A DNA stretch of 64,000 nucleotides from Candidatus Aminicenantota bacterium (lineage in GTDB: Bacteria > Acidobacteriota > Aminicenantia > Aminicenantales > Saccharicenantaceae): positions 1-64,000 of the forward strand of contig JAPKZD010000022.1 in assembly GCA_026393975.1 (NCBI GenBank), in the 5' to 3' direction. The notes under the pieces were generated by a model. The model saw nothing but the letters and a program-made list of their open reading frames with translations, was not told the DNA's origin and made no database searches. Below are positions 3,377 through 26,570 of this stretch, piece by piece. A program made the position numbers and the translations under genes. Position 1 is the first letter of the stretch. Each line of letters opens with the position of its first letter.

Positions 3377-5449
3377 ATGAAAACCCGAGTCCTTGGTGTC
3401 GCATTTTCTATTCTCTTCGTGGCCAGCGCCTTGGCCGGTCCGGAAAAGCTTTCGCCGGAACTTCAGGCCTGGCTCGAAGACGTTTCCCCGATCCTCACCC
3501 GGATGGAGCGGGCCGTTTTCAAGAAACTCCAAACCAACGTCGAACGGGAGAAGTTCGTCCGTTTCTTCTGGCGGATGCGGGACCCCCTGCCTGACACGAC
3601 GGCGAACGAGTTCCAGAAAGAGTACGAGGAACGCGTCCGCTTCACCGACCAGAACTTCGGCCACTATTCGCCGAAACGGGGGAGCCAAACCGACCGGGGT
3701 TACTACTACCTCGTCCTCGGGCCGCCGCTCGAGCGCCATTTTTTCACGACCCAATCCGAGGTTTGGCCCCTCGAGCTCTGGTTCTACAAGGGGGCCCAGG
3801 AATACGGCCTGCCGGATTATTTTTACCTGATCTTCTACCAGCCCGAGGGGATCGGCGATTTCCGTCTCTACTCGCCGGGCGTCGATGGCCCGGAGAAGCT
3901 GGCCGTCCCCATCATGGGGGGAGGGAGCATGAACCGCTCCCAGGCGGTCGAGGCCATCAGGAAAGCGAATTCCGAGCTCGCCTCGGCGGCCCTGAGCTAC
4001 ATGCCCGGCGAACAACCGATGGGAATGGGCTCGTTTTCCTCCGACACCATCATCGCCTCCATCCGCGGCCTCCCGGAGAAGAAATTCTCGGACACCTACG
4101 CCAAGTCGTACATGTCCTACAAGGATTACGTCGAGACGGAGTATTCGGACAATTATCTCCAGAGCGCCTTCCAGGTCAAAGTTTTCCGGGAAGGCGGCCA
4201 GGCCTTCGTCCATTGGACGATCGAGCCGGAGAAGATGAATTTCGGGACCCAGGGCAGCGCTATCTACGCCAGCTTCGAGCTCGTCCTGCGGCTCGAGGAC
4301 GGCCGCGGCGGGACGGTCTTCGAGAAGGTCGAAGAGATCCCGCTCAAGCTCACGCCCGAGCAGTACAAGGCCCACGAACGCCAGCGCTTCGCCTTCCAGG
4401 ACCTCCTGGCCGTCGTCCCCGGCGAGTACCGGGCCTTCTTCCTGCTGAAGAACAAGACGGGCAAGGACTTTTCCTCTTTCGAGACGAGGGTCGTCACGCC
4501 GGCGGAGCCGGAGGCCGGCCAGGCCGGGCTCAGCGCCCCGCTCATCTTCCACGCCCGGGAGGCCGTCCCCGACGCCCAGAAAAACAACCTCAAAGCTTTC
4601 GCTTTCGGCGGCTGGCAGTATATCGTCGGCGCCCGGAACGAGTTCACTACGGCCTCGACGCTGGGCGTCTTCGTCCAGGCCTGGAATCTCGGCAAGCTCG
4701 GCCTCGCCGCTCCGCCGACCTTCGTCCTCGACATTGTCTCGCTCGATACGAACCAGAGCGCCGGGCTCTTTGCCCTGTCGGACGTTGTCGCCGACCCCCA
4801 TGCCCCGGCGACCCTCCTCGTCTCGGGGACCGCCTCCTTGAAGGACGTCAAGCCCGGCTACTACCGGGCGGAGATCTCGGCCCGGGCCGCCGACGGACGG
4901 ACGGTCCTCGCGCAGAAGGAGAATTTCGTCGTCCTTTCCCAGCCCGTCCCGGTCGTGCCTTGGACGTACGCCGGTCTGCACGGGCCGTTCCCCGGTCCCG
5001 AGCACCTCAAGATCCTCGCCTCCCAGTACTTCCTGACCGGAGATTACGAGCGGGCCCGGGACACCCTCGAAAAGACGCTCAAGGACAAGGACGACCCGGC
5101 CGTACGCCTCCTCCTCGCTAAAACGTTATACGGCCTCGGGCTTTTCAAGCAATCGCTCGGCCACGCCCTGCCGCTTTACGAGCGGGTACCCGACCGGGAA
5201 GCGGCCAAGGTTATCGCCCTCGACTACGCCGCGCTGAAGGACTGGAATTCCGCCCTGACCTATCTCGACAAGCTCCTGGCCGAGGCGACCGAAGTCCCGG
5301 TCCTGAACCTGGCCGCCGAATGTCTCCTGGCCCTCGACCGCCCGGAGAAAGCCCTGCCCCTCCTCCAGAAGTCGCTTTCGCTCGTTCCCGACCAGCCGGC
5401 GGTCAAGGCTCTGGAGGAAAAAACGAGAAAGCGTGCCGGTCAAAAATAG
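3377..5449 (+). CDS. GWxTD-domain secreted protein with C-terminal TPRs
   Basis: A 690-aa exported protein of unknown role. Residues 1-20 form a signal peptide. Residues about 30-140 match the GWxTD domain found in Acidobacteria, Bacteroidetes and Aminicenantes proteins; the signature here reads GSQTDRGYYYLVLGPP instead of GWxTD. A beta-rich middle region (about 250-540) is followed by TPR-like helices (about 560-690), which suggests a scaffold for protein contacts at the envelope. AGGAAG directly abuts the ATG, leaving no normal SD spacing, in line with a leaderless start. The next gene begins 9 nt downstream and also carries TPRs, so the two probably work together. Confidence 0.75.
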   Translation: MKTRVLGVAFSILFVASALAGPEKLSPELQAWLEDVSPILTRMERAVFKKLQTNVEREKFVRFFWRMRDPLPDTTANEFQKEYEERVRFTDQNFGHYSPKRGSQTDRGYYYLVLGPPLERHFFTTQSEVWPLELWFYKGAQEYGLPDYFYLIFYQPEGIGDFRLYSPGVDGPEKLAVPIMGGGSMNRSQAVEAIRKANSELASAALSYMPGEQPMGMGSFSSDTIIASIRGLPEKKFSDTYAKSYMSYKDYVETEYSDNYLQSAFQVKVFREGGQAFVHWTIEPEKMNFGTQGSAIYASFELVLRLEDGRGGTVFEKVEEIPLKLTPEQYKAHERQRFAFQDLLAVVPGEYRAFFLLKNKTGKDFSSFETRVVTPAEPEAGQAGLSAPLIFHAREAVPDAQKNNLKAFAFGGWQYIVGARNEFTTASTLGVFVQAWNLGKLGLAAPPTFVLDIVSLDTNQSAGLFALSDVVADPHAPATLLVSGTASLKDVKPGYYRAEISARAADGRTVLAQKENFVVLSQPVPVVPWTYAGLHGPFPGPEHLKILASQYFLTGDYERARDTLEKTLKDKDDPAVRLLLAKTLYGLGLFKQSLGHALPLYERVPDREAAKVIALDYAALKDWNSALTYLDKLLAEATEVPVLNLAAECLLALDRPEKALPLLQKSLSLVPDQPAVKALEEKTRKRAGQK

Positions 5450-7636: not shown

Positions 7637-8665
7637 CTAATATATCAAATTTAATTTTTTTTTCAATCCTCGGTAATTCCGGACGGCGTTGAGATGCTCG
7701 CCCAGGGTCCGGCTGAAACGATGGCTGCCATCGCCCTGGAGAACGAAATAGAGATATTTCTCCGGCGCGGGATTGAGGGCGGCGTCGATACTCGTCTTGC
7801 CCGGATTGGAGATGGGGCCGGGCGGTAGGCCGGGGTGCACGTATGTGTTGTAGGGCGAGGGGAACTTGAGGTCGCGGAGAAGGAGACGCCCGGCATACTT
7901 GTTCTCGAGCTTGAGGGCGTAGATGACGGTCGGGTCGCAGTCGAGCTTCATCCCGATCCGCAAGCGGTTATGGAAAACGGAGGAAACGAGCGGCCGTTCT
8001 TCGGGCAGGGCGGTCTCTTCTTCGATGAGCGAGGCCAGCGTGACGACATCGCGGATGCTCATGCCGAGCTCCGCCGCCCTCAGCCGGCGGCCCTCGTCGA
8101 AGACCTCGCGGAACTCGGCGATCATGGCCGCGACGAGCTCGGCCATGGGCGCTTGTCGCGGCAGGTGATAGGTGTCCGGGAAAAGGTAGCCTTCGAGGTC
8201 CTTCGCCCGGGGGTCCCAGTTGGCGATCAGGCCGATGTCGAGGAAGGCCCGTTCGAAGGCCGCAGAGGCTTCCGCGTCGCCCGGCCGGAGAACCTCGGCG
8301 ATGTCCCGCCCAGTCAGGCCTTCGGGAATGGTGAAGGGCTGGAGGTGGATGCGGCCTTTGAAGACCTGGAACAGGACGTCCTTGGGCTTGAGGGGCGGGG
8401 AGAATTGGTATTCGCCGGCCTTGAACCGCTCCTCGGGGTAGAAGAGGCGACAGGCCAGCCTGAGAGGGAGAGCGCTCCGGACGAGGCCGCGCTGCCGCAG
8501 GCCTTCGACGACGCCGCGGGCGCTCCGGCCTTTCTCGACGTCGAAGAAAACGGCGGCGGACTCCTTCCCGACGGGCGTCGAGAGCTCCCTCGCGAGCCAG
8601 GCGGTGAAGGCGGGGACGAGGAGGACGGCGGCCAGGAGAAGGGCCTTAATTGGCTTCAGGAACAT
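7637..8665 (-). CDS. mltG: Endolytic murein transglycosylase MltG
   Basis: A 342-aa inner-membrane lytic transglycosylase that cuts nascent peptidoglycan strands and so limits glycan length. An N-terminal membrane anchor (about 4-24) is followed by a LysM-like segment and the YceG/MltG catalytic domain. ASLIEEET at 211-218 matches the E. coli ASIVEKET site, making Glu215 the probable catalytic residue; LEGYLFPDTYHL (158-) is the other family hallmark. The frame stays open to 8932, but that part only shadows ruvX, so I place the start at 8665, a 20-nt overlap with ruvX. With ddl and ruvX it forms a minus-strand operon. Confidence 0.85.
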   Translation of the reverse strand: MFLKPIKALLLAAVLLVPAFTAWLARELSTPVGKESAAVFFDVEKGRSARGVVEGLRQRGLVRSALPLRLACRLFYPEERFKAGEYQFSPPLKPKDVLFQVFKGRIHLQPFTIPEGLTGRDIAEVLRPGDAEASAAFERAFLDIGLIANWDPRAKDLEGYLFPDTYHLPRQAPMAELVAAMIAEFREVFDEGRRLRAAELGMSIRDVVTLASLIEEETALPEERPLVSSVFHNRLRIGMKLDCDPTVIYALKLENKYAGRLLLRDLKFPSPYNTYVHPGLPPGPISNPGKTSIDAALNPAPEKYLYFVLQGDGSHRFSRTLGEHLNAVRNYRGLKKKLNLIY

Positions 8666-9086
8666 CCTTCGCACCGCGCTTCTGCTCGAGGTAGGTCGAA
8701 AGGATGATGACGGCCGAGATCTGGTCCTCCCACTCTTTTTTCTTCTTGCCGCTGAGCTTCTCGCCTCGGAGGACGTTGAGGGCCTGCCGGGTCGACAGGC
8801 GTTCGTCCATGAAGACGATGGGCTTCCCGACGGCCTTGCCCAGCCAGGCGGCGAACACGCGCGTCTTCTCGACTCGTGTCCCGGAACTGCCGTCCATCCG
8901 GAGAGGGTCGCCGATGACGATTTCCCCGACATCGTATTTGGCGACGAGGTCGCGGAAGTGCTGCCGGTCGACGTTTTCCCTCCCGGTGAGCTCGTAGGTC
9001 TCCAGCGGCTGGGCCGTGATCAGGAGCGGGTCGCTCAGGGCGAGGCCGACGTGACGGTCGCCGTAGTCGATCCCCAGGATCCGCAT
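8646..9086 (-). CDS. ruvX: Putative Holliday junction resolvase RuvX/YqgF
   Basis: A 146-aa RNase-H-fold nuclease of the YqgF family, linked to pre-16S rRNA processing and to junction resolution. The N-terminus holds the acidic motif GIDYGDRHVGLALSD (first catalytic Asp at about 6), and the C-terminal part has VFMDERLSTRQA with the second acidic pair. Length is standard (about 140-150). The start codon overlaps the ddl stop by one base (TGATG), and the end overlaps mltG, so translation is coupled. The yqgF-mltG neighbourhood is common in bacteria. Confidence 0.85.
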   Translation of the reverse strand: MRILGIDYGDRHVGLALSDPLLITAQPLETYELTGRENVDRQHFRDLVAKYDVGEIVIGDPLRMDGSSGTRVEKTRVFAAWLGKAVGKPIVFMDERLSTRQALNVLRGEKLSGKKKKEWEDQISAVIILSTYLEQKRGAKDVPEAN

Positions 9087-14733: not shown

Positions 14734-16728
14734 ATGGCCACATATCCTGTGAGCCGGGCGTCTGTCATTTTCTTTCCGTCTGCCTACCTACCTACCCGCG
14801 CTTTTCTAATCGGCATCCCGCAGCTGACCAATCAAGCCAAGACTCTACCTGGCAGCCGTAAGGACATCGATATGCGATTCTTAATGCTTGGAACCGGCGA
14901 GTTGGGCCCCAACAAGATCCTGGAGGAATCCGCGTTTGTCGTGACGTCGCCCGTCGAAGGCGAGGAGCTCGTGCCCGGCGCGGTGCATCTCATCACCTGG
15001 ACGGGAGCCGAGGACGTCAAAGAAGTCAAGTACCGGGACCAGACGCTGAAGCCCAAAAACGAAGGAGAGGAGGTATCGCAGTCTATCGTCAGTGATTCGT
15101 TCGAGACGTACGGGGCGGGGGTCTTCCCGAGGACGGGCGGGTGGCTCACGGGCATGGAGAAGATTGCGGGACTTCTCTCAGAGATTAGTCCGAGAGAAAC
15201 GCCGGCTGATGCTCTAAACGTGCGACCTGCCGGCTCTTTAAAAGACAAGGTAAAACGACTCGGGATTGCCAAGACGGGGGCAGAGAGAGAAAGCAGGGGC
15301 AGCGAGGTGCTTCAGTCCGGCGAGCAAGGCGCCCAAGCCTTAAACCTTTCCGATGGGGCTTCGGAGAACGGAGCGGCCCTGATTGATGATGAGGACTCCG
15401 TCTCCGGGCTGAGGTCGTTCAGGCTCGAAACCGTCGGAATAGGGTCGGTTTCCGTTGTCAAGCGGTTCAGCCTGCCTGACCGCGTTCCTTTTGGGGTGAG
15501 CGGGGGGAGTTTCGCGATAGGCGTCAAGCCCAATGATTCCCAAACAAGGACCGGCCTGAGGGAGGGCTCGGATAGGGTATCCCTCCTGGATAGGAGATCC
15601 GGGAAGCTTGGGAAGGAGAATGATCCGGTAACTGGTCCGACATCCGGCGTCAAGAATAAAAGAAACCTCCCTGCTGAAAGTAGATCTGCCGACACAGCTC
15701 TTGATCAGGGCTCAGGAGACAGCCGAAAGACGATGACGACCCTGTCCGCTTCGCCGGTCGGCAACTACTATCTCTATTCCTTTGACGGCAAGCTCCTGCA
15801 GACATACAATGTCTATGGGGTGCTACTCAAGGACTATATCTACATGGGCGACCGGCTCATCGCCGAATACGACCACGTCGGGGCTCGCTTCCTCTACTAC
15901 ACGCCGGACCAGATCAATTCGACCCGCGTCGTGACCGACAGCGCGGGGACGGTAGTCTATTCGGCGGTCCACGACCCCTACGGCGGGATCCAGCAGACCG
16001 GTACCAACAACACCTACGACCCCCAGCTCAAGTTCTCAGGCAAAGAGCGCGACGCCGAATCGGAGCTCGATTACTTCGGAGCGAGGTATTATGACAGGAG
16101 CCAGTATAGGTTTATTTCTGTAGATCCAGTGTTCGAGCTTGAAAAAGCCAGAAACAGTGGTTGGAACATGTATTCATATTGCGGAGATAGGCCCACGAGC
16201 TATATCGACCCCGACGGAATGAGTTGGATATATTATAATAATGTTTGGGGACAAGTATATCTTGTCCTCAACAATTCTTTAGGCACGGTTGTAGGGCCCT
16301 TCCCTGCAGCTAATAACGGCTTTTTTGAAGGCCATGCCAATCCCTTTCCTCAAGGAACTTGGCGCCTCGATTACTATAATCCGAATTGGATAAAGGGAAT
16401 CGACTGTCAGGGTGCATATATATTTTCTGTGACGGGCCACAGGGGGATGGGAATTCATGCTCACGATGAGGTCTTTGGGTATACTTATACCGATGCCTCC
16501 GCAGGCTGCATTACTATAGAGGGCAGCACAATGGCTACGTTACGCTGGTGGGATCGTATTGATCCCATACAGGGCATCCAAGTAGACCGGGCGGATATAG
16601 AACTACCCGCACTACCTGTCATGACTATGGATCTTCTATTGGCTTCGGTTCAAATAACGAGGCTACTTGTGACTGCGCTGCCAGCTGGAAACGATATATC
16701 CTGGGCTATTTCTTATGCCCCAAAATAG
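14734..16728 (+). CDS. RHS-core protein with L,D-transpeptidase-like C-terminal domain (candidate toxin 1)
   Basis: 664 aa. The N-terminal third (about 47-330) is low-complexity with no domain I can name. Residues about 345-495 form the RHS-associated core: YYLYSFDGKLLQTYN, KFSGKERDAESELDYFGARYYD, ending YIDPDG at 490-495, the usual boundary where polymorphic toxin C-termini begin. The C-terminal domain (496-664) has PQGTWRL, GIHAH and SAGCIT. His575 or His577, Ser589 and Cys592 reproduce the H-x13-S-x-G-C pattern of L,D-transpeptidase/YkuD and DUF2778 enzymes that act on peptidoglycan. No clear signal peptide is seen; ATG 14872 is an alternative start. Full-length RHS YD-repeats are missing, so this is a short cassette. 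The C-terminal part is AT-richer than the neighbours, as expected of acquired tips. Confidence 0.7.
   Translation: MATYPVSRASVIFFPSAYLPTRAFLIGIPQLTNQAKTLPGSRKDIDMRFLMLGTGELGPNKILEESAFVVTSPVEGEELVPGAVHLITWTGAEDVKEVKYRDQTLKPKNEGEEVSQSIVSDSFETYGAGVFPRTGGWLTGMEKIAGLLSEISPRETPADALNVRPAGSLKDKVKRLGIAKTGAERESRGSEVLQSGEQGAQALNLSDGASENGAALIDDEDSVSGLRSFRLETVGIGSVSVVKRFSLPDRVPFGVSGGSFAIGVKPNDSQTRTGLREGSDRVSLLDRRSGKLGKENDPVTGPTSGVKNKRNLPAESRSADTALDQGSGDSRKTMTTLSASPVGNYYLYSFDGKLLQTYNVYGVLLKDYIYMGDRLIAEYDHVGARFLYYTPDQINSTRVVTDSAGTVVYSAVHDPYGGIQQTGTNNTYDPQLKFSGKERDAESELDYFGARYYDRSQYRFISVDPVFELEKARNSGWNMYSYCGDRPTSYIDPDGMSWIYYNNVWGQVYLVLNNSLGTVVGPFPAANNGFFEGHANPFPQGTWRLDYYNPNWIKGIDCQGAYIFSVTGHRGMGIHAHDEVFGYTYTDASAGCITIEGSTMATLRWWDRIDPIQGIQVDRADIELPALPVMTMDLLLASVQITRLLVTALPAGNDISWAISYAPK
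15754..15935 (+). repeat. Direct repeat A1 within RHS core
   Basis: Matches 18262-18443 at a fixed offset of 2508 nt with 7 mismatches over 182 nt and no gaps; the first 62 nt are identical. This is DNA-level identity, not only protein similarity, so the two cassettes are recently duplicated or kept alike by recombination. Confidence 0.9.
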
Positions 16729-16738
16729 AGCCAACCCT

Positions 16739-16849
16739 ATGATAAGTATCATTCACGCTAATATCGGATGGGCAGATTTGATCAGGCTTGCCTGCAAGGT
16801 CATTTTCTTATCGATATCATTCATTTTGCTATTGGCTAACAACCCATGA
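16739..16849 (+). CDS. Possible 36-aa membrane peptide between toxin and downstream gene
   Basis: ATG 16739 to TGA 16849. The peptide opens MISIIHANIGWADLIRL, continues into a hydrophobic stretch (about 17-33, IFLSISFILLL) and ends LANNP. Its stop overlaps the next gene's start in an ATGA arrangement (ATG at 16846), which suggests translational coupling. The gap to the RHS stop is 10 nt. No good Shine-Dalgarno is visible, so it may be read through from upstream translation or be chance. Confidence 0.35.
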   Translation: MISIIHANIGWADLIRLACKVIFLSISFILLLANNP

Positions 16850-17823
16850 AAAAGAATCGAATAATCTCACTCTGTGCCCTTCTGTTTTTTTCAAGAATCA
16901 GCATGAGTCTGCTCCATGCTGAAGGATTTAGGTGCCAACCGAGCAAGGATGCATGCCCTGTTATAGCCGACATCCTCCCTAGACAGTGCGAAAACGATGG
17001 AACCATCAGTTTTCTATTCCCTCAAAATACGTTAATTCGCCGAATATTCATAACATTAAAGAATCCAATTGTTTGCCAATCTGTTGATGTTGCTTTCACT
17101 TGGGTGGGGGTGGGGAATTGGGGAAGAGTAGCCGGGATTCTTGTGGTGAAATCCGACGGAGGTCCTAATTGCTTTTTTCTTGGTAACGAATCGGGCATTC
17201 CGCCCGATATCCCCGTTGACAAATTCCAATTGAAAATCCCTCCAGGAGTCGAACTTAAAGAAGTTGTATTTTCCAGACTATTATCAGGCCCAGTTACGAC
17301 GATTTGTCCCATGCCAGATTTGGAAAAAGAGATCAATAGTGCCTATGATATCTGGAAATCTAATCCGATTGAAGAAAAGATCATCGATAATCTCCTCCGA
17401 GTTCTGGAAAAAGCAATCCCACGGTATGATTGCCGGCGAGAAATTGACAGTGAACCTGTCCCTGCTTGGTGGCTGGCGGATTATCGGAGCAATGACAACT
17501 GGATTGCGTTTATGACAACGGTTCTTGACGCGGGCTACGCGCCAGCCTTGAGGCTGTTCATGGAATTTTTCAGGACGTCCGATGGCTATATTGCTGAGGG
17601 GATGACATGGCAAATAGTGAAGATGATCAATAGCGATCCAATATTTATCCTCGAGAATTGGGGCGATCTTAAGAATTATAAGGAGAGCGTTTTCGGCATT
17701 AGGAAGTTTCTGGGACAAGATGACATCGACCGATTGACTACAATGTATCGTGATATATCTCACACCAAGCCGAGTTTTAGTTCGGCTTGTGCGGAGATTA
17801 TCGAAGGCTTGAACAGGAAATAA
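16846..17823 (+). CDS. Exported protein of unknown function, candidate immunity protein 1
   Basis: 325 aa with a signal peptide (about 1-25, ending LLHAEG), so it acts in the periplasm or beyond. The N-terminal half is beta-rich with several Cys (RCQPSKDACPV, QCENDG, NPIVCQS); the C-terminal half (about 155-325) is helical. I recognise no family. It directly follows the RHS cassette 1 tip, is AT-rich like the tip, and is exported, as an immunity protein against a wall-acting toxin should be. That role is inferred from position. A perfect 8-bp hairpin (17766-17789) lies near its 3' end. Confidence 0.55.
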   Translation: MKKNRIISLCALLFFSRISMSLLHAEGFRCQPSKDACPVIADILPRQCENDGTISFLFPQNTLIRRIFITLKNPIVCQSVDVAFTWVGVGNWGRVAGILVVKSDGGPNCFFLGNESGIPPDIPVDKFQLKIPPGVELKEVVFSRLLSGPVTTICPMPDLEKEINSAYDIWKSNPIEEKIIDNLLRVLEKAIPRYDCRREIDSEPVPAWWLADYRSNDNWIAFMTTVLDAGYAPALRLFMEFFRTSDGYIAEGMTWQIVKMINSDPIFILENWGDLKNYKESVFGIRKFLGQDDIDRLTTMYRDISHTKPSFSSACAEIIEGLNRK

Positions 17824-17973: not shown

Positions 17974-19194
17974 GTGGCCAAACGGCTGAGCCTTCCGTCC
18001 CGCGTGCCTTTCGGCGTGAGCGAGGGGAATTTCATGATAGGCGTTGCCAAGACGGCTTCCCAGGTGAAGACGATTTCGAGAAGCAGGCTGGTGGAGGAGC
18101 TTGGCTTGGGAGATCGACCCGACCGGTCGCGCGAAGAAGAGGATCGGGTCTCGGATCGAAAGTCGGAAACCGCCAATGAGGAACAGGTTCCCGGCATCGC
18201 TAAAGCAGGCCGTACCCCCTCCGGCTCAGGCAACAAGACGATGAAGCTCATGTCGGCCTCCCCGGTCGGCAACTACTATCTCTATTCCTTTGACGGCAAG
18301 CTCCTGCAGACATACAATGTCTACGGGGTTCTCCTCAAGGACTATATCTACATGGGCGATCGCCTCATCGCCGAATACGACCACATCGGGGCTCGCTTCC
18401 TCTACTACACTCCGGACCAGATCAATTCGACCCGCGTCGTGACAGATCAGGGCGGCAACGTGGTCTATTCCGCAACCTATAATCCTTACGGGGGAGTGCA
18501 AATCCCTGATCAGTATAATAACATCGATCCGCTGCCGAAGTTCTCGGGCAAGGAAAGGGACGCGGAATCGGAGCTCGATTACTTCGGGGCGAGGTATTAT
18601 GATAGGAGCCAGTACAGGTTCATCTCAGCTGATCCCAAAATGTATCTAGCTACCGCCCTTATGCCTCCCAAGAAGTGGCATTTCTATTCATATTGTTCGA
18701 ATAATCCCGTCGCATATATAGACCCCAATGGAGCCGCAGAGATCTATTTCCAATTAAATATCTATTATGTTTCTTCAGAGGCAATATGGGAAATATCCGG
18801 CCACCAAACACGGGGGGGAGCACTTAAATGGACCATGACTGTTGAAAGTGATATAGGAAAGGTAAATGGAGAGGGCCGTTTCTGTGCGACCATCTCCTTG
18901 CCCATAAATGTCTATATTCCTGAAGCTGGCGATAGCATCTATGGAACTCCAGATAATCCCAAAGATATTAATGATTCCCTTAATCACGAACTTTCCCATC
19001 TTGAAAATGTCCTTTCGTTTTTTGAAAACACAATTGAGGTCGCGGAGACGTTCGAAGCTAATAAAATAGACAATAAGATCGATGCTAAAATGACAAAGTT
19101 GCTTTTTACGTTTTTTGTAAAGCTTTTAGGTGCAAATTGTGGTTTTCTCAATGTTATTATCGATAATACTCCTGCGCCAAATTGGGACAAATAG
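17974..19194 (+). CDS. Orphan RHS-core cassette with HExxH C-terminal domain (candidate toxin 2)
   Basis: 406 aa if the GTG at 17974 is used (GAGG about 6 nt upstream); homology with cassette 1 begins before it. The RHS core occupies about 90-253, ending YIDPNG at 248-253. The tip (254-406) is unlike the first one. It carries NHELSHLEN, an HExxH zinc-protease motif at 338-342, followed by acidic helices (possible third ligand in the Glu-rich stretch after it). No signal peptide or promoter of its own was found. It may be silent until recombined onto cassette 1 through the shared core. The protease activity is inferred only from the motif. Confidence 0.55.
   Translation: MAKRLSLPSRVPFGVSEGNFMIGVAKTASQVKTISRSRLVEELGLGDRPDRSREEEDRVSDRKSETANEEQVPGIAKAGRTPSGSGNKTMKLMSASPVGNYYLYSFDGKLLQTYNVYGVLLKDYIYMGDRLIAEYDHIGARFLYYTPDQINSTRVVTDQGGNVVYSATYNPYGGVQIPDQYNNIDPLPKFSGKERDAESELDYFGARYYDRSQYRFISADPKMYLATALMPPKKWHFYSYCSNNPVAYIDPNGAAEIYFQLNIYYVSSEAIWEISGHQTRGGALKWTMTVESDIGKVNGEGRFCATISLPINVYIPEAGDSIYGTPDNPKDINDSLNHELSHLENVLSFFENTIEVAETFEANKIDNKIDAKMTKLLFTFFVKLLGANCGFLNVIIDNTPAPNWDK
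18262..18443 (+). repeat. Direct repeat A2 within RHS core
   Basis: Partner of 15754-15935 (offset 2508 nt, 7 differences in 182 nt). A second, weaker block follows in both copies over the FSGKERDAESELDYFGARYYD coding segment (from about 16029 and 18538). Confidence 0.9.
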
Positions 19195-19274
19195 GCCTTG
19201 TAGAAGGGCTTTTTGGCTTTAATCGTCTTATGCGTTCTAAGAGACGGGAGCGAGCACAAACAAGGAGATATTCA

Positions 19275-19631
19275 ATGTCTATGAGAGCCGTTTCAGATCC
19301 GGATAAGAAACCAAGAGTCTGTTGTCTGGTCTGCGTATTAATGCTTATGTTGGCAGTGGGGACGTTTGTATTCAGGACGATTCAATATGGTAAAAAATTG
19401 AAGTTCTATGACGAGATCCAGATTGGCGCCGATTTGCGTGACGTAATTCCTGTCATTGGTCCGCCATCACAATATCTAACTAGAGAGGAATTTCTAGGGA
19501 GAAAATGTGATATGTTCATATATCATAGTCCCTTGCCCATACAAGATGACTTCTCTCTCCTTTTTGATTTAGTGACTCATAAACTAGTTGATAAACATAG
19601 GGGCGTGATCATTAGTTCTTTAGAACACTAA
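19275..19631 (+). CDS. Membrane-anchored small protein, candidate immunity protein 2
   Basis: 118 aa from the ATG at 19275, which has AAGGAG 7 nt upstream; the frame is open earlier but without a matching site. One membrane segment (about 16-36, CCLVCVLMLMLAVGTFVF) is followed by a soluble domain of about 80 aa. The passage IQIGADLRDVIPVIGPPSQYL resembles the helix-strand pattern (xxxGxxxxxVxxxxGxPS) of SmpA/BamE-like folds. It lies 80 nt behind the HExxH tip, so an envelope-located immunity role is plausible from position. It could also be an unrelated small lipoprotein-like gene. Confidence 0.5.
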   Translation: MSMRAVSDPDKKPRVCCLVCVLMLMLAVGTFVFRTIQYGKKLKFYDEIQIGADLRDVIPVIGPPSQYLTREEFLGRKCDMFIYHSPLPIQDDFSLLFDLVTHKLVDKHRGVIISSLEH

Positions 19632-22628: not shown

Positions 22629-23120
22629 TTGAGCGAAACACCGAAAATCATCCGGCAGGCCCTGGTCATCGGGGTCCTCAGCGTCCTCCTGGGCGCAACG
22701 GTCAATTTCCCCCTTGTCAAGCGGTTCGCCCGGGGCGAGTTCCGGGAGACGTTCTTTTCTCAGGCCGATAATCCCGGCGTCCGCTTGATCACGCTTCAGG
22801 AAGCGGAGGACCTCTGGGCGGCGGCGGAGACTGTATTTTTAGATGCCCGGGGGGCAGGCCCATACGGCGAAGGACACGTGCTGCGGGCCCGGAATTTTCC
22901 GGCCGCCGCGTCCGGGCAGGAGCTGCCCGCCGAGGTCCTGAAGCTGCCGCGGGAGCGGACGCTCGTCGTCTACTGCGAGGGCGGGGACTGCCAATCGAGC
23001 CTCCTCCTCGCGAAGCGGCTCCACGACGAAGGCTTCAAGGACATCCGCGTCATGACCGGCGGCTGGGAGGAATGGAAAAAGGCCGGTCTGCCGGAGGAGA
23101 AGGGCGATGATAAAGAATAA
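22629..23120 (+). CDS. Membrane-anchored rhodanese-like protein
   Basis: 163 aa from a TTG at 22629; no ATG exists in frame here and the frame upstream shadows the aminotransferase. An N-terminal membrane segment (about 12-30) precedes a rhodanese domain with VFLDARGAGPYGEGHV, and the active-loop Cys in VVYCEGGDCQSS. This fold handles sulfur or selenium transfer; here it faces the periplasm if the anchor is read correctly. The stop overlaps the following MauE/DoxX gene by 14 nt, so the pair is coupled. Confidence 0.75.
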   Translation: MSETPKIIRQALVIGVLSVLLGATVNFPLVKRFARGEFRETFFSQADNPGVRLITLQEAEDLWAAAETVFLDARGAGPYGEGHVLRARNFPAAASGQELPAEVLKLPRERTLVVYCEGGDCQSSLLLAKRLHDEGFKDIRVMTGGWEEWKKAGLPEEKGDDKE

Positions 23121-23523
23121 AACCCTTCTCGTCCTCTTCCGGCTCGTCCTTGGGGGACTTTTCGTCTACGCCGGAGTCGTCAAAGTCCTGGACCCGCTCG
23201 ACTTCGCCCAGAACATCCGCAACTACCGCCTCGTCGGCCAGTCGCTCTCCTTTATCGCGGCCGTCGTCCTGCCCTGGCTCGAGATCCTGGCCGGAGTCGC
23301 CATGGCCGCCGGTATCTGGAAACGCGCCTCTGCCCTGATCATCTCCGGCCTCCTCGTCTTCTTCATCCTGTTGACCCTGGTCACGATTGCCCGCGGCCTC
23401 GACGTCGACTGCGGCTGTTTCGGGGCCATCAGCCGGAAATCCGGCCTCGGCGTCATCCTCGAGGACCTCGGGATGCTCTTCATGGGCCTGTGCCTCCTCT
23501 TTGCCCCGGCCAAGCAGACCTGA
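23107..23523 (+). CDS. MauE/DoxX-family membrane protein
   Basis: 138 aa with four hydrophobic segments (about 8-28, 45-68, 75-98, 110-132). FVYAGVVKVLDP at the N-terminus and the DVDCGCFG motif (about 99-106) mark the MauE/DoxX group, thought to feed electrons to periplasmic disulfide chemistry. The coupled upstream rhodanese fits a joint thiol or sulfur redox function. Start ATG 23107 has GGAG about 8 nt upstream. Confidence 0.8.
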   Translation: MIKNKTLLVLFRLVLGGLFVYAGVVKVLDPLDFAQNIRNYRLVGQSLSFIAAVVLPWLEILAGVAMAAGIWKRASALIISGLLVFFILLTLVTIARGLDVDCGCFGAISRKSGLGVILEDLGMLFMGLCLLFAPAKQT

Positions 23524-23712
23524 GTTATTGAATTCCCTCCAAGAATGAAGGGTGTCACGCACCGCTTCGAGAGAAGCAGCACATGTCCCCCAATCAAGGG
23601 TCCTCCGGTCAAAGGAGAGAGCGGGCTTGCAAGCCAAGGGCCGGCCTAGACGCCACCCGGATGGTTACCGTCGCCGTCATTAGCGGGTGGCGCCGCGGTG
23701 GCCCGATGTCCG
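23524..23712. other. Intergenic stretch with small inverted repeats
   Basis: No gene is supportable. It holds a 5-bp hairpin with a GAGA tetraloop (23564-23577), a 12-bp perfect palindrome (23624-23635) and an 8-bp stem GCCACCCG/CGGGTGGC spanning about 23650-23695. All lie upstream of the ppdK promoter, so they would belong to the 3' end of the MauE transcript or act as DNA sites. Confidence 0.35.
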
Positions 23713-23741
23713 TTGATATTTGAGCAGATTCCGTGTATATT
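23713..23741 (+). promoter_or_regulatory. ppdK promoter
   Basis: TTGATA (23713-23718), 17 nt, TATATT (23736-23741); leader about 27 nt, with AGGAG 7 nt before the ATG at 23775. Confidence 0.65.
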
Positions 23742-23774
23742 TCACTGAATATATTAACGTTCAGGAGATGACCA

Positions 23775-26570
<2,796 letters not shown>

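Follow-up and report, generated by a model that had tools for sequence, protein, structure and literature searches.

A truncated RHS gene with a predicted L,D-transpeptidase-fold tip and a candidate immunity partner in a Candidatus Aminicenantota bacterium

A truncated RHS gene in the genome of a Candidatus Aminicenantota bacterium ends in a tip that is predicted to adopt the L,D-transpeptidase (YkuD) fold, and the gene that follows it encodes an exported-looking protein whose homologue accompanies a homologous tip in another genome. The RHS gene lies at positions 14734–16728 and its partner at 16846–17823, both on the forward strand of the 64,000-nucleotide stretch analyzed here, referred to as the window. 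In our judgment, the tip is likely to be an antibacterial RHS-type L,D-peptidase or L,D-transpeptidase toxin with an exported protector, present as a stored or displaced cassette or as a remnant. This kind of toxin is already known: Zhang et al. (2012; PMC3482391) described RHS proteins that carry L,D-peptidase tips, are linked to immunity genes, and are predicted to target peptidoglycan, and the window tip adds a good example to them. It resembles the Tox-LD-peptidase class of that study in its predicted catalytic H, S, and C residues, its RHS architecture, its linked candidate immunity gene, and its predicted attack on peptidoglycan. The table for this class includes Actinobacteria, Bacteroidetes, beta-, gamma-, and delta-Proteobacteria, Chloroflexi, and Firmicutes, together with the immunity families Imm16 and Imm57 (PMC3482391). 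Unlike the tabulated examples, the window tip belongs to the phylum of the Acidobacteriaceae and sits on a truncated RHS gene.

The open frame at 14734–16728 encodes 664 amino acids, in which an RHS-associated core domain (15973–16221, residues 414–496; TIGR03696, E = 8e-18) ends in the sequence DPDG and is followed by the C-terminal tip (16213–16725). The initial annotation, made from the sequence alone, had pointed to an H-x13-S-x-G-C motif on an RHS tip and to a PQGTWRL segment resembling the TPxGxY element of YkuD enzymes, and both observations are borne out. Counted from H575 (16456–16458, within GIHAH at residues 573–577), the motif H575-x13-S589-x-G591-C592 is exact and lies C-terminal to the RHS core, with H575 as the predicted catalytic His and SAGC (residues 589–592; 16498–16509) as the predicted nucleophile loop. 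A looser pattern, H-x(11-17)-[ST]-x-G-C, arose in 640 of 200,000 shuffled tips (0.3%), and a chance origin is disfavored more by conservation than by this frequency. H575, G591, and C592 are invariant in all eight independently found RHS tips of the alignment, and position 589 is occupied by S or T throughout. The Gly of PQGTW (residues 539–543; PQGTWRL at 16348–16368) is likewise invariant in the eight tips, most of which have P-x-G-x-[WY], the equivalent of the YkuD element. The conserved His is H575, while H577 is common only to the window tip and its closest homologue (L033; 38% identity), and the variable residue of the motif is A in the window tip (SAGC), where the usual residue is H.

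A search for tip homologues in 396 genomes of the same phylum matched the window tip to L006, an RHS tip of a different genome (E = 1.2e-5), and more tips were found in relatives. Against PF03734, for which the curated Pfam cut-off is 23.4 bits, the window tip alone scores 15.2 bits (E = 0.034, tip residues 43–107), which is below the cut-off, and L006 scores 24.2 bits, which is above it; six of the seven aligned tips match this family independently, L006 being the one above the cut-off. An AlphaFold2 model of the tip has a mean pLDDT of 72.6; most of the core scores 80–91, and the final 40 residues fall mostly under 50. Homology backs the domain over approximately 16213–16620, and the remainder to 16725 was modeled mostly at pLDDT <50. 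When the model was compared with the PDB by Foldseek, all 48 chains at E ≤ 0.001, among the 50 matches listed, were L,D-transpeptidases or L,D-carboxypeptidases; Bacillus subtilis YkuD ranked first (4a1i; E = 3.3e-6, probability 1.00), and TM-scores were moderate, at about 0.5. A sequence search of the PDB with the tip alone returned no match, and a profile built from eight tips aligned with the L,D-transpeptidase 8da2 (E = 0.012), pairing H575 with the His of GIH and C592 with the Cys of SHGC. The predicted fold of the tip is thus that of the L,D-transpeptidases (YkuD), and in the fold and profile alignments H575 and C592 coincide with the catalytic His and Cys residues known from such enzymes, which bears indirectly on the requirement of the initial annotation that the two share one active site. 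Like the YkuD enzymes (PF03734; B. subtilis YkuD, LdtMt2, and Csd6), the window tip has this predicted fold, a PxGx[YW] element, and a His together with Gly-Cys; unlike them, it is C-terminal on an RHS protein and reads SAGC-I-T rather than the common SHGC-I-R. Its identity to solved L,D-transpeptidase structures is at most about 21%. The genome encodes three further YkuD-family matches. Scanning a collection of genome contigs with the window tip yielded no relative, and scanning it with L006 yielded only the record of L006 itself; a search of a plasmid collection found none for the window tip and one distant match for L006, and PADLOC gave no matches.

The RHS gene that carries this tip is not complete. 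Positions 14791–15030 (residues 20–99) align with residues 1325–1409 of a 2123-amino-acid relative, positions 15022–16218 (residues 97–495) align with its residues 1582–1966, and the remainder of the relative has no match in the window, which indicates that only the C-terminal third of the gene is present and that an internal segment has been deleted from it in frame. Within the window, the gene lacks both a signal peptide and the YD shell. Of the earlier proposal, the part concerning an L,D-transpeptidase-fold tip on an RHS core agrees with the predicted fold and the TIGR03696 match; the gene itself is not a complete effector. In the genome as a whole, which is 95% complete so that 5% may be missing, a search for RHS repeats (PF05593) found none and a search for a full-length RHS gene elsewhere was negative; a 2120-amino-acid full-length relative matches the genome by its C-terminal part only, plus one weak 97-amino-acid match. 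A VipB/TssC sheath gene (PF05943) was likewise sought in the 95%-complete genome and not found, and active delivery of the tip by a type VI secretion system (T6SS) was rejected on this ground. Since signal peptide, shell, and T6SS sheath are all lacking, the tip is probably not delivered as the gene stands, and the truncation, together with the lack of a shell elsewhere in the genome, suggests that the gene is probably a reservoir cassette or a remnant.

The reservoir cassette is the preferred reading of the two. Relatives possess full-length RHS genes with signal-peptide-like N-termini, followed by arrays of short cassettes, and the layout of the window, in which an RHS C-terminus is followed by a partner and then by the next cassette, is common to these arrays. 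The second cassette of the window consists of an RHS core with an HELSH (HExxH) peptidase-like tip, recognized by its sequence (17974–19194, forward strand; TIGR03696, E = 1.9e-17), and a candidate immunity protein (19182–19631, forward strand) that groups with proteins following HExxH-type tips in relatives. An HEHRH tip similar to the HELSH tip was seen on contig C23 (L002). The conserved core repeat of the first cassette (15736–16212, forward strand) is approximately 83% identical to the second (83.25% over 406 columns by blastn, with a longest identical stretch of 62 bp at 15754 and 18262) and is a possible recombination substrate, and the genome contains four RHS cores with unlike tips. 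The GC contents of the tip (0.47) and partner (0.445) are low relative to the window (0.623), as expected for horizontally acquired tips. The main rival reading is a pseudogene: the frame would be the decaying remains of an RHS gene, in which the tip fold is real and has no present function. The missing 5′ two thirds, the in-frame internal deletion, the failure to find either a shell or a full-length RHS gene elsewhere in the genome, and the stop codons present in several cassettes of relatives all fit decay. Nevertheless, the 664-amino-acid frame is open, the catalytic positions and the partner gene are intact, and relatives show the identical layout in arrays, so that we regard a functionless remnant as rather unlikely and retain the reservoir cassette.

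Before it could be delivered, a reservoir cassette of this kind would have to recombine into a full-length RHS gene via the conserved core. As part of a complete, Sec-exported RHS protein, the tip would be cut free at DPDG, where the core ends, and would then reach the periplasm of a competitor. By analogy with the biochemistry of YkuD and Tlde1 (PMC9638812), the stem peptides of peptidoglycan would be attacked by C592, together with H575, at the bond that links D-Ala4 to the third residue. The terminal residue would be trimmed or exchanged for a D-amino acid, and cross-linking would thereby be starved or disturbed, while the exported protein encoded at 16846–17823 would guard the producer in its own periplasm. 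A tip with the L,D-transpeptidase fold might alternatively act on another substrate, or bind rather than catalyze. The residue after GC-I is R in other aligned tips, T in the window tip, and S in L033, and this replacement of a conserved Arg in the window tip and its closest homologue suggests that substrate binding or specificity may differ; several second-shell positions differ as well. However, H575, S589, G591, and C592 are all retained, and the partner has an export-like N-terminus, as do the partners of other tips, and these features make a different substrate or a purely binding role improbable. The peptidoglycan-directed enzyme accordingly remains the reading adopted for the tip, with the proviso that its specificity may be altered.

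The protein encoded at 16846–17823 is 325 amino acids long and begins with the signal-peptide-like sequence MKKNRIISLCALLFFSRISMSLLHAEG. Among the loci fetched, its only clear homologue is found in genome G398, where it immediately follows the closest homologous tip; the two partner proteins are 41% identical over 171 residues (E = 4e-46 to 3e-43). The G398 tip ends an RHS gene that has a signal-peptide-like start, is interrupted by runs of N in the assembled sequence, and is flanked by the genes for DoxX and pyruvate phosphate dikinase; a copy of the same tip and partner adjoins the same dikinase gene in genome G461, which belongs to the same taxonomic order. Flanking genes of the G398 type occur in the window at 23107–23775 onward with no RHS gene between them, which places the tip–partner pair at two different loci. 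The presence of a homologous tip with a homologous partner at another locus makes a toxin–immunity pair very probable, and co-inheritance, position, and the apparent export signal all point to 16846–17823 as the candidate immunity gene. A search of Pfam with the partner gave no known family, unlike the Imm16 and Imm57 partners of the Tox-LD-peptidases; an assignment to either of these was rejected, neither being matched at E ≤ 1. It is unlikely that the partner is an unrelated exported protein, given that its 41%-identical homologue in G398 also comes after a homologous tip, at a different place in the chromosome. For such a protein might be cited the lack of a known family, the weak resemblance to the proteins that accompany other L,D-type tips (P about 0.001–0.01), and the 120-bp gap after the tip, which is larger than in most cassettes.

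The loci fetched contain 51 RHS tips, and their partners were also compared. Partner genes fall into families that follow the type of tip, and the N-terminus is hydrophobic in 47 of the 51. The largest cluster, of 14 partners, occurs solely with L,D-type tips, 12 of which were recognized by a simple motif; on inspection, one of the others carries HKGETEGC and one is degenerate. In profile comparisons from which the first 35 residues had been removed, P was ≤ 0.028 whenever two L,D-type partner groups were paired and ≥ 0.033 for all other pairs, and it is in comparison with the other L,D-type groups that the window partner shows its weak similarity. The sorting of partner families by tip type could help to assign unknown tips.

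Tlde1 is a toxin with an L,D-transpeptidase fold and a cognate immunity protein (PMC9638812). The window tip would be like the Tlde1/DUF2778 T6SS effectors (PF10908) in using this fold as a toxin; unlike these effectors, it is borne on an RHS core, in a genome without a T6SS sheath gene, and lacks a PF10908 match. The initial annotation had proposed an envelope-targeting effector like DUF2778/Tlde1 proteins, to be checked by comparing a predicted structure with YkuD and DUF2778. The exported-looking partner fits an envelope target, and the best structure match is YkuD; the DUF2778 side of the proposal is not upheld, as PF10908 has no match to the window tip at E ≤ 1 and none among the matches listed for its aligned homologues, and Tlde1a is absent among the 50 structure matches listed. 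Although Tlde1 shares the fold superfamily and the kind of target, and an RHS tip from the same family of genomes (L034 in G412), which served as a positive control, does match PF10908 (45.2 bits), these results make membership of the window tip in the Tlde1/DUF2778 family very improbable, and it was rejected. The window tip probably works like Tlde1 from outside the Tlde1 family.

The RHS tips of relatives include several that match DUF5675 (PF18925), with scores of 42.9–72.5 bits; such domains were seen at L043:802-1323 and L043:2450-2989 and in L036 and L054. On the 10.5-kb contig of L043 (G216:C18), all five complete successive tips have L,D-peptidase-like H...GC motifs of the YkuD or DUF5675 type, and each is followed by an exported-looking protein. 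In one DUF5675 tip, a single stretch is also matched by Tlde1 (E = 0.003) and by YkuD (E = 0.007), the YkuD-type and DUF5675-type tip profiles align with each other (E = 1.3e-5, probability 81%), and phrog_1501 gives clear matches to DUF5675 tips and a weak one to the YkuD-type tip L006 (E = 0.16). DUF5675 tips resemble the window tip in their occurrence in the same gene arrays, their H...GC motif, and their loosely related partners; they differ in forming a separate Pfam family and in yielding a low-confidence model without a fold match. This model, with a mean pLDDT of 55, found no match in the PDB, so that the DUF5675 link comes solely from sequence and partner genes. We hypothesize on these grounds that DUF5675, a family of function unassigned in Pfam, may be L,D-peptidase-like.

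Other tips in these loci point to different chemistries. RHS tips with VanY/M15-like D-Ala-D-Ala carboxypeptidase motifs occur in L046, L047, and L049 (tip ORF 4020–5012), one of which matches VanY at E = 8.5e-5, suggesting another peptidoglycan-directed chemistry in the same loci. Tips of L055, L074, and L049 (tip ORF 7941–8669) have a repeated LHVIQDxxxH motif and, we presume, resemble zinc-dependent phospholipase C, and tips with GHS...[AS]C[NH]S motifs in L004, on contig C15 of the window's own genome, and in L075 presumably resemble caspase-like or CHAT peptidases. A plausible, if tentative, view is that the RHS loci of this bacterial family form a peptidoglycan-rich toxin library, in which the YkuD-, Tlde1-, and DUF5675-type tips would be divergent branches of one L,D-peptidase superfamily diversifying in tandem arrays, with the YkuD and DUF5675 types met by a shared and diversifying family of exported immunity proteins.

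The picture of RHS L,D-peptidase toxins drawn in 2012 is unchanged by the window tip. Through it, the known range of peptidoglycan-attacking RHS tips would reach a little-studied branch of the phylum to which the Acidobacteriaceae belong, and with its partner it supplies a concrete candidate toxin–immunity pair. The survey of relatives' tips in turn suggests a function for DUF5675, which, if the proposed relationship is true, would be an L,D-peptidase-like enzyme.
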